A program made the translations under genes and the position numbers. Under the pieces are notes generated by a model, which saw only the letters and a list, made by a program, of their open reading frames with translations, had not been told where the DNA came from and did not search any database. From an uncultured bacterium (GTDB lineage: Bacteria; Cyanobacteriota; Vampirovibrionia; Gastranaerophilales; Gastranaerophilaceae), in the NCBI GenBank assembly GCA_900319365.1, contig ONOE01000005.1, forward strand, positions 62,001 through 126,000: a stretch of DNA of 64,000 bases. The letters run 5' to 3'. Positions 23,946 to 31,758 of this stretch are shown here, piece after piece; position 1 is the first letter of the stretch; each line of letters begins with the position of its first letter.

Positions 23946-26417
23946 TTAAATATATTTTGCGGTTTTTGAATTTTTGCAATTTTTCAAATCTTTCGGAGTT
24001 CCCGCAAAAACTATCTCCCCGCCGTATTCTCCGCCGTCAGGTCCCATATCAATAATATAATCGGCATTTTTTATTACATCTAAATCGTGTTCAATAACAA
24101 TAACCGTTGCACCGTCATCAATAAGAGATTGGAAAACTCCTAAAAGCGTTTGGACATCCTGCGGATGAAGTCCGATTGTCGGTTCATCAAAAACAAAGAC
24201 CGATTCTGATTGAGTTTTTCTCATTTCACTTGCAAGTTTCAACCTTTGAGCCTCCCCGCCCGAAAGATTAGGAGTTGCTTCACCCAAAGTTAAATACCCG
24301 AGCCCCAAATCTTTTAGAACCTGCAATCTTTGAGCTACGAGTTTCAAATCCTTACACGCACCGATTGCCGTATTTACATCCATTGCCATAAGTTCAGGCA
24401 GCGAATAATTGTTATATTTAACCGATTTTGCGAATTTGGAATACCTTGAACCTCCGCAATCAGGGCACGGAATTTCGACATCGGGCAAAAATTGAATATC
24501 TAAATTGATTATTCCCGTACCGTCGCATGTCGGGCAGCGTAATTTACCCGTATTATAAGAAAAATCGCCCGCTTTGTATTTCAGTTCTTTTGCTTTTGAA
24601 GTTTTTGCAAAAACTTTTCTTAATTCGTCATGAATATTTGCATAAGTCGCAACGGTAGAACGTACATTTATCCCGATAGGTGCAGCATCAATAAGTTTGA
24701 CCTGTTTAACATTATCTGCTTGAATTTTTAAAACATGAGAGGGCAGCTTTTTGCCGCTTGAAATTGTTTCAAGTGCAGGAACAAGACTCTCAAGTATCAT
24801 TGTGGTTTTGCCCGACCCTGAAACTCCCGTAACAACAGTCATTCTGCCTTTCGGGATATCAACTTTGAGCGGTTTAACCGTATGGATATGTCCTGTTTCC
24901 ATGTGAATTTTGCCATACTCAAACATTTTATCTTTTTGAGCAGGTTTTCGCACAAGCACATTTTTACGCCCCGATAAATAATCCCCGATAATGGAATTTT
25001 TGTTATCCTCAATTTCTTTTATTGTGCCCTGAGCTATTACGTTGCCTCCGTCAGCTCCCGCACCTTTGCCCATCTCTAATACCCAATCGGAAACATTTAA
25101 TATCTGGGTATCATGATCAACAAGAATTACGGAATTGCAGTCTGCAATCAAATCTTTTATTACGCCCTTCAAGCCCTCTATGTTAGAGGGATGAAGTCCG
25201 ATAGAAGGTTCATCAAGCACGTACAAAACACCCGTTGTACGATTTCTTACGGCTCTTGCAAGCTGCATTCTCTGCCTTTCACCCGTTGAGAGAGTATAAG
25301 ATGCCCTGTCTAAAGTCAAATACCCCAGACCCAAATCTATTAATCGCTTTGCAGCCGTTTGAAACGATTCGCAAATACTTTTTGCCATAGGCACCATTTC
25401 TTCAGGCAATGAAGCGGGGACTTTTTCGACCCAATCAGACACCTGCGACAAAGTCATTTGGCAAACCTTATCCAAAGTTATTCCCATAACTTTAGGATAC
25501 ATAGCTTCTTTACTCAGTCTTGTGCCATGGCAATCGGGGCAGATATCCTGTTTTAAGAATTTTTCAACACGTTTCATACTCTTTTCGTCTTTTGCCTTTG
25601 AAAGAGCATTTTGAACGGTATAAATCGCATTGAAATACGTAAAATCCATTTCGCCCGTAGATCCTGCTCTTGCGCCTGATTTTACCTGATAAACCATGTG
25701 ATGCTTTACGGGCTTACCGTAAAATACCATATCTTTTTCTTTTTTAGTTAAATCTTTAAACGGAACATTTGTTCTCACACCCAAATCCCTTGCGATATCT
25801 TTCATCAAAGACCACATCAGAGTTTGCCACGGCGCAACAGCCCCCTCATCAATCGTTAAACTGTCATCGGGAACAATTGTTGATTCATCAACAATTCTGA
25901 CAATTCCCGTACCGCCGCATGTCGGACAAGCCCCCTGACTGTTAAAAGCAAGTTCTTCTGCCGACGGAGGGATTACCTGAGCCCCGCACACGGGGCATAT
26001 AATTTCTTTTTCCGCAGCAACGGCAAGAGTAGGTTCAACATAATGACCGTTCGGGCATCTGTGGCTTGCAAGTCTTGAAAACATTAGTCTTAAACTGTTT
26101 AAAAGTTCCGTTCCCGTTCCGAATGTACTTCTTACCCCGGGAATTACAGGTCTTTGATGCAACGCAAGAGCAGCAGGAATATATAAAATATCATCTATCA
26201 ATGCTTTTTGCGCCTGTGTCATTCTACGTCTTGTATAAGTTGAAAGCGCTTCAAGATATCTTCTTGAGCCCTCCGAATACAAAACCCCGAGCGCAAGAGA
26301 AGATTTGCCCGACCCTGAAACACCCGCTATTCCGACTACTTTATTTAACGGAATATCGACATCAATGTTTTTTAAGTTATGAACTTTTGCCCCTCGAACA
26401 AGTATTTTATCAACCAT
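23946..26417 (-). CDS. UvrA-like ABC ATPase, short paralogue
   Basis: The 823-residue protein has two ABC halves with GVSGSGKSSLA (about 33-43) and GVSGSGKTTMI, signature loops LSTGERQRMQLARA and LSGGEAQRLKLAS, and zinc-finger pairs CPVCG...CPTCGG and CPTCDGTG...CPDCGG. It is ~120 residues shorter than the canonical UvrA at 43811, mainly in the UvrB-binding/insertion part. Such paralogues occur in many bacteria and have been linked to drug resistance or alternative damage handling rather than standard excision repair. No uvrB or uvrC is nearby. Intact. Confidence 0.88.
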   Translation of the reverse strand: MVDKILVRGAKVHNLKNIDVDIPLNKVVGIAGVSGSGKSSLALGVLYSEGSRRYLEALSTYTRRRMTQAQKALIDDILYIPAALALHQRPVIPGVRSTFGTGTELLNSLRLMFSRLASHRCPNGHYVEPTLAVAAEKEIICPVCGAQVIPPSAEELAFNSQGACPTCGGTGIVRIVDESTIVPDDSLTIDEGAVAPWQTLMWSLMKDIARDLGVRTNVPFKDLTKKEKDMVFYGKPVKHHMVYQVKSGARAGSTGEMDFTYFNAIYTVQNALSKAKDEKSMKRVEKFLKQDICPDCHGTRLSKEAMYPKVMGITLDKVCQMTLSQVSDWVEKVPASLPEEMVPMAKSICESFQTAAKRLIDLGLGYLTLDRASYTLSTGERQRMQLARAVRNRTTGVLYVLDEPSIGLHPSNIEGLKGVIKDLIADCNSVILVDHDTQILNVSDWVLEMGKGAGADGGNVIAQGTIKEIEDNKNSIIGDYLSGRKNVLVRKPAQKDKMFEYGKIHMETGHIHTVKPLKVDIPKGRMTVVTGVSGSGKTTMILESLVPALETISSGKKLPSHVLKIQADNVKQVKLIDAAPIGINVRSTVATYANIHDELRKVFAKTSKAKELKYKAGDFSYNTGKLRCPTCDGTGIINLDIQFLPDVEIPCPDCGGSRYSKFAKSVKYNNYSLPELMAMDVNTAIGACKDLKLVAQRLQVLKDLGLGYLTLGEATPNLSGGEAQRLKLASEMRKTQSESVFVFDEPTIGLHPQDVQTLLGVFQSLIDDGATVIVIEHDLDVIKNADYIIDMGPDGGEYGGEIVFAGTPKDLKNCKNSKTAKYI

Positions 26418-28161: not shown

Positions 28162-29082
28162 CTATTTATATAAATTTATCGTTTGATTTATAAGATCTAT
28201 CATTTTGTTTCGCAGATACTTTGGCGAAATAATTTCACACGAAAACGAATACCTCATCAACCTTGCAAGAAGTTTATCCATCGGTTCATCTTTATTTACT
28301 ACATATATTTCATCGTTTTCTTTTCTGTCCAGATATTCATTCTCTTTTAGTCTGTAAGATTTTGCAAGACGACCTTTCAATTTGTAAACGACAGTCATTG
28401 TCTGAGCGGAGGCGGAAGCTTTTTGCGGCTGGACTTCTATTGATAAAATATTAGGCAATGCAATTTCGACATTTTCATTGCTTGTCATATTATAAACTTT
28501 TAAATATGCCGTTTTGTTGTCATATATCATTTCTTTTGCGCTGCATTTGATTTTTGTTTCCCTGCCGTTTGATAAAAATGTTATATTCAGAATTTGATTA
28601 TTCTTGCAATAGTTTCTGCATTTTTCTATCTGGGTTTTAAAATCGGTATAGAAAAATGAGAAATCATAATTTGTTTGAAGAGTGTGAAGTTCTTTTTTAT
28701 CGGGATTGTTCATTCTTAGCAGCAATTCTGATGCAAAAGATCGAAAATTGCCAGAAATTTCTTTATCGGGAAAATTATTTGCGGCATTAAGAAGCATGCT
28801 TATTGATTTCAAATCATCAAGGGTATAATTTAGTGAATACAAGCTGCTTTCAAATTCATATTTATTGTTCTTTTTTATAATTTTTATGCCGAAAACTCTT
28901 AATGCATTAATATATTTATTTAAAACAACCTGAGTAATTTTTGGATTTTTCCGGGCTTCAACTTCCTCGTTAAAGATTCTTATAACCTTGTCATAATAAG
29001 CATTATCCTCATATAAGAGAGAGAGGAATTTGAAAATATTTAAACATCCGTTATTTATTTTTTTATTATTTTTCTTTGCCAA
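28162..29082 (-). CDS. WYL-domain transcriptional regulator (second of pair)
   Basis: The 306-residue protein has an N-terminal winged-helix-like domain (CLNIFKFLSLLYED, VLNKYINALRVFGIKIIKK), a WYL-type SH3-like domain (QILNITFLSNGRETKIKCSA to IALPNILSIEV, about 145-215) and a C-terminal WCX-like extension. WYL proteins sense nucleic acid or nucleotide ligands and control DNA-damage or defence genes. It overlaps the upstream paralogue by 17 bases. The tandem pair recalls PafB/PafC of actinobacteria, but direct orthology is not implied. Confidence 0.7.
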   Translation of the reverse strand: MAKKNNKKINNGCLNIFKFLSLLYEDNAYYDKVIRIFNEEVEARKNPKITQVVLNKYINALRVFGIKIIKKNNKYEFESSLYSLNYTLDDLKSISMLLNAANNFPDKEISGNFRSFASELLLRMNNPDKKELHTLQTNYDFSFFYTDFKTQIEKCRNYCKNNQILNITFLSNGRETKIKCSAKEMIYDNKTAYLKVYNMTSNENVEIALPNILSIEVQPQKASASAQTMTVVYKLKGRLAKSYRLKENEYLDRKENDEIYVVNKDEPMDKLLARLMRYSFSCEIISPKYLRNKMIDLINQTINLYK

Positions 29083-30013
29083 AATAACCCTCTTTCATTT
29101 TATTAAGGCATTCTATTATTTCTTCCTTGTAGCTTTGCGGAGAAATAACTTTGCATTTGTTTGACAGAGATAGAATCCTTTGAGTGATACTAAATTTATT
29201 TTTAGATGAAATTTCTACAAGAATTTTATTTTCATCTCGCTTTAAGACTTTTTCTTCCGTGATAAGTTCCAAATCATTGTTATCCGTTTTGTAATATTCA
29301 TAAACCGCTTTAAATGCGGGAATATTTAATTGAGCGGGATTTATATTCACGCTCAATATTTTTATTATTTTTGAAACGGGAAATGAATAGTAATTGTTAT
29401 ATTCCGAATTAACGCCCGACAAATAGAGTTTGCCATTTGTTATACTCAATTTATCAGCCGCAATATCTATCTCTTTTTTGCCCGAATTTGGGGAATTGTA
29501 TAGTATTTTAATCCACGCTTTTTTATTTGTGTAATGCATCAAGTCCTTTACAAGCTCGGGATTTATACTGCAAAGCGGAGATAAATTTTCGATTTGTATT
29601 TTTAAATCTTCATTTGCTATATATTTTGAAATCTTTAAAAAAAACTGCTGCAGGGCTAAATAATCAAAAATATCAATTGATTTTGAAATAGCTTTGTAGA
29701 TTTTAATAATACTTTTTGCCTGTTTATCGGAAATTTTCAGTTTAAAAGGATGAGAGGCAATATAATACTTGGTCTGCTTACCTCTCTTTTCACTCTCAAT
29801 TTTGCATCCTGCTTCTTTTAAAGAGTTAATATAAATTCTTATTGTGTCAAACGAAACGCTCTCGTGCAGATATTCGTTTTCTTCAAGCGCTTTTTGAATA
29901 TCAGAATAAGTTTTGGGGCTTTCGGCAAGCAGAGAAAAAATTAAAATTGATTTAAAACCGCTAAAAGACATTAAATTATGAGTAACTTCATTTGTTTCCA
30001 TAAAACGTTTCAT
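29066..30013 (-). CDS. WYL-like transcriptional regulator (first of pair)
   Basis: The 315-residue protein shares its plan with the next gene: N-terminal winged helix (SILIFSLLAESPKTYSDIQK, SFDTIRIYINSLKEAGCKIE), WYL-like core (KKAWIKILYNSPNSGKKEID to SFPVSKIIKILSV) and a C-terminal WCX-like part with a similar closing pattern (CKVISPQSYKEEIIECLNKM versus CEIISPKYLRNKMIDLINQT). It overlaps the downstream gene, so the two are co-translated and may form a heterodimer. A second Met at residue 5 is an alternative start. Confidence 0.65.
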   Translation of the reverse strand: MKRFMETNEVTHNLMSFSGFKSILIFSLLAESPKTYSDIQKALEENEYLHESVSFDTIRIYINSLKEAGCKIESEKRGKQTKYYIASHPFKLKISDKQAKSIIKIYKAISKSIDIFDYLALQQFFLKISKYIANEDLKIQIENLSPLCSINPELVKDLMHYTNKKAWIKILYNSPNSGKKEIDIAADKLSITNGKLYLSGVNSEYNNYYSFPVSKIIKILSVNINPAQLNIPAFKAVYEYYKTDNNDLELITEEKVLKRDENKILVEISSKNKFSITQRILSLSNKCKVISPQSYKEEIIECLNKMKEGYFGKEK

Positions 30014-30206
30014 AATAAAAAATCCCGCTCTATCTTATTTTTAGCATGCCTTTTCCTTTTCACTAATTCTATAATGTCAAACACTTTTTCGCAAAATATT
30101 TACATGATTTCATTAAGTTATCTTCATTAAGATTTAATAACACGAATTTTTATTTACGTATTCAAGGGGCATGGTCAATTGTAAAAAAATAATAATTTTT
30201 TTTTAC
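30014..30206. other. AT-rich gap between WYL gene and candidate RNA
   Basis: This stretch has no gene. It should hold the minus-strand promoter of the WYL pair; TTTGCG-N16-TATAGA on that strand is possible but weak. Long A and T runs lie near 30183-30205. Confidence 0.4.
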
Positions 30207-30600
30207 TTGTAATTCTCAAAACTTAGTTCTACAGTAATAAACGTAGACAGGAAGCCAAATAAAACAGGCTGCCGGATTGTTTTAGGGGATTTACCTCAAG
30301 GTAATAAAAAGTAAGTAACAAAGGAAGTAAGGAAAAGAAAGAAACAGAGGTGATGGTGAAGTAGTTTGGAAAGGAGATAAGATTAAATTCTTGAACAGAT
30401 AATTTTGTAGTTGGGAGATTAGGGATATTTTTTCACAAAGGGTGAAAAAGATTAAAAGAATTTAAAGTATAAAAAAGATTTTATTTTATATATCTGGTTA
30501 ATTAAGGGAGTAAAGTTAAAAGCTTTAAGAAGAGAGTAAAAATTGGATAGTTGTAAACTTCAATATAGTCTGAACAAATGTTCAGGCTTTTTCATTTTTT
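30207..30600 (+). ncRNA. Candidate GGA-rich structured RNA or anmK leader
   Basis: A promoter-like TTGTAA (30207-30212) and TACAGT (30230-30235), 17 bases apart, predict a start near 30242. About 360 bases follow with no reading frame, strong purine bias and eleven GGA motifs. Small hairpins are TAAAACA/TGTTTTA, TTACC-TCAA-GGTAA (near 30291-30304) and TTTTTTCAC-AAAG-GGTGAAAAA (near 30428-30450). It ends in a terminator at 30567-30600, 30 bases before anmK. It does not match RNase P, SRP, tmRNA or 6S consensus elements I know. Either a free RNA or an attenuated leader would fit. Confidence 0.4.
30567..30600 (+). terminator. Terminator just upstream of anmK
   Basis: AGTCTGAAC pairs with GTTCAGGCT (one G-U pair) over a four-base loop, then TTTTCATTTTTT. 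It ends the candidate RNA; if that RNA is a leader, it could be an attenuator. Confidence 0.8.
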
Positions 30601-30630: not shown

Positions 30631-31758
30631 ATGGAAGATTTGCAAACAAAAAAAGTTATAGCCCTGATGTCGGGGACTTCATGTGACAGTATAGATGCAG
30701 GATTGTGCGAGGTTCATTCCGATATGAGCGTCAAATTGATTCAGGGGATAAATTACAAATATCCGCCGCATATTCAATCTAAGATTTTTTCAATATTTAG
30801 AGGCGATGCGGGGGTAAAAGATATTTGTCTTATGAATTTTGCAATCGGTGAATGTTTTGCAAATGCAGCAAACGCTTTGATTGCGGAATTTGGCAAGCCC
30901 GATTTTATATCAAGCCACGGACAAACGATATATCACTATCCTTATGACGAAAAGATTGATGATATTTCGTTAAAAAGCACCCTGCAAATCGGGGAAAGTT
31001 CTGTTATTGCGCAAAAAACAGGCTGCATGACGATTTCGAATTTCAGAGAAGCTGACATTGCTCAAGGCGGACAGGGCGCACCGCTTGTTTGTTTTGCCGA
31101 TGAAAAATGGTTTAAAAATAAAGGCAAAAATTTTGCAATTCAAAATATCGGCGGAATTTCTAATGTAACGGTTGTATCAAAAGATTTCGACACATTCGGA
31201 TTTGATACGGGTTTGGGCAATATTATGATTGATTATTGCGCAAATAAATATTTTTCACTTCCATACGATAAGGACGGAAAAATTGCGGCACAAGGAATAA
31301 TAAATGACAGCTGGCTTGATATTTTGCTGCAGGATGAATATTATTCCGTTGAACCTCCAAAATCAACGGGCAGAGAATATTTCACGCCTAAATATATTGA
31401 AAATGCCTTAAAATTTGCCCCCGAAGACCCGAAAGATATAATGGCAACAGTTACCGCCCTGACGGCTAAAACCATTGCGCAAAGCTATGAAAGATTTATT
31501 TATCCCCAAGTCGGTATTCACGTAGCCGTAATTTGCGGAGGCGGAGCTTATAACAAAACCTTGATGAAATTTCTAAAATCTTATCTGCCGTCATACATTG
31601 ATTTAAAGACCTGCGAAGATTACGGAATTTCAAACAATTTTAAAGAAGTTATGGCGTTTGCACTTTTAGGCTACTGCACGTATTACGGCATACCGAATAA
31701 TCTGCCTTGCTGCACGGGAGCAAAGAAGCGTGTTGTTATGGGCAAAGTCAGCTACTAA
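30631..31758 (+). CDS. anmK: Anhydro-N-acetylmuramic acid kinase
   Basis: The 375-residue ASKHA-fold kinase phosphorylates and opens 1,6-anhydroMurNAc from recycled peptidoglycan to give MurNAc-6-phosphate. Visible motifs are ALMSGTSCDSIDAGLCEV (about 11-28), SSHGQTIYHYP, QGGQGAPLVCFADEKWF with the catalytic Asp, NIGGISNVTVV, FGFDTGLGNIMID and VICGGGAYNKTLM. Length is normal. No murQ or other recycling gene is adjacent. A GATAAT box ten bases before the ATG and a candidate leader RNA upstream leave its promoter open. AGGA at 30617-30620 can serve as ribosome site. Confidence 0.93.
   Translation: MEDLQTKKVIALMSGTSCDSIDAGLCEVHSDMSVKLIQGINYKYPPHIQSKIFSIFRGDAGVKDICLMNFAIGECFANAANALIAEFGKPDFISSHGQTIYHYPYDEKIDDISLKSTLQIGESSVIAQKTGCMTISNFREADIAQGGQGAPLVCFADEKWFKNKGKNFAIQNIGGISNVTVVSKDFDTFGFDTGLGNIMIDYCANKYFSLPYDKDGKIAAQGIINDSWLDILLQDEYYSVEPPKSTGREYFTPKYIENALKFAPEDPKDIMATVTALTAKTIAQSYERFIYPQVGIHVAVICGGGAYNKTLMKFLKSYLPSYIDLKTCEDYGISNNFKEVMAFALLGYCTYYGIPNNLPCCTGAKKRVVMGKVSY

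Follow-up and report, generated by a model that had tools for sequence, protein, structure and literature searches.

The window, the whole 64-kb stretch of DNA that was analysed, carries at 30207-30600 a region that lies between two leftward genes for WYL-WCX regulators and the rightward anmK gene (Table 1). Sequence inspection and scans bear out what the original prediction had described there: a promoter, a stretch without a reading frame that holds eleven GGA motifs, and a terminator. The stretch is also rich in purines. The promoter-like start (TTGTAA, a 17-base spacer and TACAGT) is kept in alignments, where it takes the forms TTGTAA/TTGTCA, 17 bases, and TA-A-T or TACATT-like boxes; a strict consensus promoter scan did not include this pair among its calls. 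The terminator (30567-30588 plus a T run) stands ~30 bases ahead of anmK. No ORF of at least 60 amino acids in the list for the 64-kb window overlaps 30207-30600, the longest ORF within the RNA has 26 amino acids, and its ORFs are short and not common to relatives. Very probably, the region forms a noncoding RNA gene that stands alone, spans ~350 bases and has its own promoter and terminator. Its 5' end was estimated from the -10 box, and its 3' end was set at the T run.

Table 1. Features of the locus, with positions numbered along the window.
Feature	Position	Strand	Evidence or remark
WYL2, second WYL-WCX regulator, overlaps WYL1	28162..29082	-	Pfam WCX in 19/31 members; predicted fold
WYL1, divergent WYL-WCX transcription regulator	29066..30013	-	Pfam WCX/WYL in members; predicted fold
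Conserved AT-rich regulatory DNA (putative)	30064..30206	+	includes TGTCAAA, CTTCATTAAG 30122-30131, GGGGCATGGTCAATTGTAAA 30166-30185
Promoter	30207..30235	+	-35-like TTGTAA 30207-30212, 17 bases, TACAGT 30230-30235
Noncoding RNA gene (very probable)	30241..30598	+	63 distinct loci by profile; 38-sequence alignment A1
Small 5' hairpin AGCC...GGCT	30253..30270	+	consensus pairs kept, one with two-sided change
GGCTGCCGGA motif	30267..30276	+	GGCTNCCRGA in 30/38 genus RNAs, 10/25 family RNAs
Invariant GAGGTGATGG	30347..30356	+	first 8 bases complementary to 16S rRNA 3' tail
GATTAGGGATAT motif	30417..30428	+	TTAGGGAT in 35/38 genus RNAs, 24/25 family RNAs
GGATAGTTGTAAACT 3' motif	30545..30559	+	GGATAGTTGTAAAC invariant in 38-sequence alignment A1
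Intrinsic terminator	30567..30598	+	terminator scan; stem covariation
anmK (anhydro-N-acetylmuramic acid kinase)	30631..31758	+	PF03702 1.3e-93; neighbour but no fixed partner

The purine content of the region, 64.6%, is attained by 0.12% of the 350-base windows in the 64 kb, and the RNA of this Gastranaerophilales locus is C-poor as well as purine-rich. The repeated AAGGRAGTAA blocks that had been predicted can be read at 30321 (AAGGAAGTAA), 30505 (AAGGGAGTAA) and 30530 (AAGAGAGTAA). The count of eleven GGA motifs also stands, but it is no higher than composition predicts (8.58±2.05 in dinucleotide shuffles, 17% of which get there), and GGA enrichment was therefore discarded as the key feature. 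The single-sequence fold is likewise ordinary (z -1.04). It is conservation, and neither the GGA count nor this fold, that shows the feature to be real.

BLAST with the stretch (E up to 0.01) recovered the RNA and promoter from 44 of the 46 genomes in the genus, although the weakest matches cover small pieces. An iterated profile search of fetched loci gave 75 hits in 63 distinct loci, comprising 38 close relatives (alignment A1) and 25 more distant ones; of the 80 loci that had been fetched through AnmK (L033-L112), the profile matched 44 and missed 36. Distribution was followed more widely with R1, a sequence model of the upstream promoter module and not of the RNA body. R1 matches 227 of 286 genomes of the order (217 of 261 of good quality), at one place per genome in all matched genomes but two; in the other 59 the RNA may be absent or the promoter may have diverged. 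A class-wide draw yielded matches in 90 of 194 genomes, with a single, marginal match (E 0.0099) outside the family of the window. Most of this bacterial family appears to keep the RNA as a single-copy gene, and conservation extends beyond the terminator, to the upstream module and to motifs within the RNA.

The RNA gene is new to Rfam 15. At the gathering threshold no family matched the window, and none matched over the RNA in 20 relatives, in agreement with the original statement that no known family signature was seen. The terminator, read in reverse, accounts for a minus-strand match to MicC (21.6 bits against a cut-off of 90), which was set aside as chance. Identity with RNase P or 6S RNA was also rejected, since RNase P RNA and a 6S-like match lie at other places. 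The 6S-like match (G000:C13:37430-37614, L032; 30.5 bits against a cut-off of 46.4) is probably a divergent 6S RNA. In the literature within our coverage, which leaves out most subscription journals, we found no description of regulatory RNAs from Gastranaerophilales or Melainabacteria.

The DNA upstream of the promoter is more strongly conserved than the RNA itself: across the 38 genus loci, mean pairwise identity reaches 82% in the upstream module but 69% in the RNA. In these loci the module has no conserved RNA fold (-0.44 kcal/mol), so it reads as a set of DNA control sites, and a longer RNA that begins within it was ruled out on the same ground. Heavy control of the RNA promoter is well supported. 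Two other readings were considered and rejected. A general regulon for GGCATGGTCAANTGTAAA was dropped because the 64-kb window holds just its own site. A replication origin was rejected because dnaA is distant from the module in all seven genomes checked (on another contig in six, and ~106 kb off on the same contig in G046); the skew profile makes no clear turn.

Within the RNA, RNAalifold on the genus alignment A1 recovers the 5' hairpin and the terminator, and nothing else. Two-sided changes occur in 7 of 13 predicted pairs, 6 of them in the terminator stem, and the terminator is also the main driver of the A1 column-shuffle score. Covariation among relatives is present in the terminator stem and in one pair of the 5' hairpin. 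Of a stem that flanks the invariant motif, the window's own subclade has lost the strong form. Primary sequence is kept in several places besides, and TTAGGGAT and a 3' GGATAGTTGTAA element are shared among nearer relatives.

One motif in the RNA hardly varies. All 63 loci carry GAGGTGATGG unchanged, and in 40 more distant loci, hand-picked in two sets of 20 from the listed R1 hits and so not a random sample, the motif takes the form RRRGTGRYGG. This form is carried by all 103 RNAs examined; shuffles of 20 loci contain it in 0.11 of 20. The first eight bases of the motif pair with the 3' tail of 16S rRNA, the anti-Shine-Dalgarno sequence (GGATCACCTCCTTTCT, read in the relative G169, the window's own assembly having yielded no 16S match). 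When each RNA is scanned against the G169 tail, the motif and the best anti-Shine-Dalgarno site overlap in 59 of 63, a raw count that is to be read knowing that purine-rich RNA yields Shine-Dalgarno-like sites easily. The final GG of the motif is not complementary to 16S rRNA. Pairing with 16S rRNA therefore cannot account for the whole motif, which may instead bind a protein, pair with mRNA or serve as a start codon.

Depending on the lineage, the motif often lies within a covarying hairpin. In an unselected test, flanking stems scored by script reach 12.08, against 8.79±0.22 in mononucleotide shuffles of the flanks. Pair changes between lineages are two-sided, with TA, AT and CG at one position; the 48 of 63 stems compared for such changes were themselves selected for pairing. 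The best stem in the window's own subclade, AAAC/GTTT, is weak.

Our preferred reading, which we hold tentatively, is that the locus encodes a stand-alone RNA that acts in trans, is controlled from upstream, and docks on the 30S subunit through the 16S tail. Transcription would run from the RNA's own promoter, at ~30241, to the terminator at ~30598, and conserved sites in the ~140 bp of upstream DNA would control the gene. The RNA, presumably acting in trans, would expose the invariant AGAGGUGAUGG as a single strand, in many cases within a hairpin loop closed by a GGAC/GUCC-type stem, and this motif could pair with the 16S anti-Shine-Dalgarno tail over 8 bases; GAGGUGAU is the element on which a docking effect would rest. 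Once the upstream region switched the RNA on, docking on free 30S subunits would follow, and translation initiation would be lowered or redirected. We infer this mechanism from a single motif that does not vary and from the context in which it lies, and we regard 30S docking as a possible mechanism more than a probable one.

An unlikely alternative gives the central role to the neighbouring regulators: WYL1 and WYL2, as a PafBC-like pair, would control the RNA promoter, and the RNA may itself be a ligand of their Sm-like WYL domains. In 62 of 63 loci (29 of the 30 genus loci) WYL1 lies upstream of the RNA and points away from it, also where anmK is missing downstream, and a WYL1-like protein is present in 28 of 29 genomes tested. 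That both proteins belong among WYL-domain regulators is indicated by Pfam matches in family members (for WYL1, WCX in 27 and WYL in 16 of 46) and by predicted structures (pLDDT 84.8 each); the window's own WYL1 falls below the WCX cut-off, its WYL2 has no Pfam match, and PDB sequence searches with the two returned nothing firm. The predicted fold of WYL1 matches CapW, BrxR, PafBC and DriD (CapW: Z 12.5, rmsd 14.3 over 214 residues), and that of WYL2 matches BrxR, PafBC and DriD (PafBC: Z 11.6, rmsd 8.2 over 155 residues), all WYL regulators of solved structure. Structure comparison also matches the predicted WYL2 barrel to Hfq, and PafBC is described as a heterodimer that senses single-stranded DNA through WYL domains of Sm-like fold (PMC11804915). 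However, the pair does not adjoin the RNA in 18 of 20 more distant loci, hand-picked from the R1 hits (it does in two), which means that the linkage is not obligate. The synteny count is also not independent, as most of the 63 loci were obtained via AnmK or come from one genus. We regard the link between the RNA and the WYL pair as suggestive synteny.

Beyond the WYL pair, on the same (minus) strand, an 823-amino-acid protein identified by eye as UvrA-like is encoded at 23946-26417; as a neighbour it offers a possible DNA-damage context. A more elaborate proposal, in which a family-wide 30S-docking RNA under a PafBC-like WYL pair serves as a genotoxic-stress brake on translation in a lineage with no detected Hfq and often no CsrA, is one to which we give little credence.

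About as unlikely as control by the WYL pair is a small RNA that base-pairs with mRNAs through single-stranded GGCTNCCGGA, GATTAGGGAT and GGATAGTTGTAA and dispenses with Hfq. The conservation of several motifs besides the Shine-Dalgarno-like one would suit such an RNA, but several of these motifs are confined to near relatives. Moreover, Hfq (PF17209) was matched in 0 of 10 genomes, which places the RNA outside the Hfq-dependent small RNAs.

Mini-ORFs with no fixed sequence, 2 to 35 codons long, start at an ATG within the motif, and in many loci, at 30347-30356 and its counterparts in relatives, these frames have only 2-3 codons. Conceivably the motif is the translation start of a very short ORF, beginning ATGGC, whose translation matters and not the RNA. 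ATGG follows Shine-Dalgarno-like bases in 63 of 63 loci, and the mini-ORFs begin M(A/V)K... Their length, frame end and peptide are nevertheless all variable, the gap between Shine-Dalgarno-like bases and ATG is only 2 bases, and GTGG or ACGG replaces ATGG in some relatives, so that we consider this explanation improbable.

The original prediction drew a parallel with CsrB, in which GGA motifs of the RNA would titrate a CsrA-type protein; this did not hold up and is now very improbable. The eleven GGA motifs are consistent with such a sponge, as is the presence of csrA in part of the family, where 43 of 117 genomes, spread over 18 of 41 genera, have it. However, csrA (PF02599), which was to be looked for in the genome, is absent from the window's own genome (0 of 1), where the RNA persists all the same, and from the five genus genomes tested. 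In the RNAs of 22 csrA-bearing genomes, a set that draws on hand-picked distant loci, the mean GGA count is 5.59 versus 5.54 in shuffles, and the loop GGA count, from MFE folds only, is 0.73 versus 0.62. The 38 genus RNAs, classed as csrA-minus on the strength of those five genomes, are also close to shuffles (8.42 versus 7.39, and 1.18 versus 0.94 in loops of MFE folds). Some csrA-bearing relatives have GACT-loop-AGTC hairpins whose loop contains GGGG or GGGGA, which would fit a sponge. In L188, L189, L158 and L160 the motif is followed by GACT...AGTC hairpins with GGGGA at or close to the loop, and the predicted folds of L188 and L189 include them.

An attenuated leader controlling anmK, also put forward originally, is barely credible and was rejected on synteny: anmK follows the RNA in 18 of the 30 genus loci found via the RNA (and in 51 of all 63, a count biased by the loci fetched with an AnmK query), but another gene follows in 11 and a contig end in one, 20 more distant loci include anmK inside the fetched stretch in six, frames that resemble secD or deoB by visual inspection, or still other frames, follow the RNA in distant loci, and the A1 consensus fold has a terminator and no competing helix. 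Because neighbours change in this way, what stays constant at the locus is the promoter together with the RNA gene.

The Gastranaerophilales, relatives of cyanobacteria that live in the gut, are common but have hardly been cultured. Most of one family in this order appears to retain a single-copy RNA gene whose regulatory DNA is more conserved than the RNA and whose motif is nearly invariant. If 30S docking is correct, it would represent an unusual route for RNA control of translation. If the RNA answers to the WYL pair, WYL sensors would be linked to a noncoding RNA.

The sponge RNAs CsrB and CsrC are stand-alone, terminator-ended RNAs of several hundred bases with many GGA motifs and repeated GGA hairpins. 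The RNA described here resembles them in being stand-alone and terminator-ended, in its length of several hundred bases and in its many GGA motifs. Unlike them, it occurs in a genome with no csrA, its GGA motifs are no denser than composition predicts and are not enriched in hairpin loops, and it has one invariant Shine-Dalgarno-like motif in place of repeated GGA hairpins. With PafBC, DriD and CapW (BrxR) the locus shares neighbouring tandem WYL-WCX proteins of the same predicted fold, although sequence similarity to WYL1 and WYL2 is weak; the likeness to the PafBC heterodimer comes from the tandem genes and the predicted fold, and the available portion of the PafBC account mentions no conserved RNA partner (PMC11804915). 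The large SRP RNA gene adjoins the RNA module in the g13 relatives (L157:1763-2021, L195:85-341 and L191:532-789). Like 6S, RNase P and large SRP RNAs, the RNA has the character of a single-copy, housekeeping-like gene kept across its lineage, but it is distinct from each of them, as they are found, or weakly found, elsewhere, the SRP RNA lying beside it in those three relatives.
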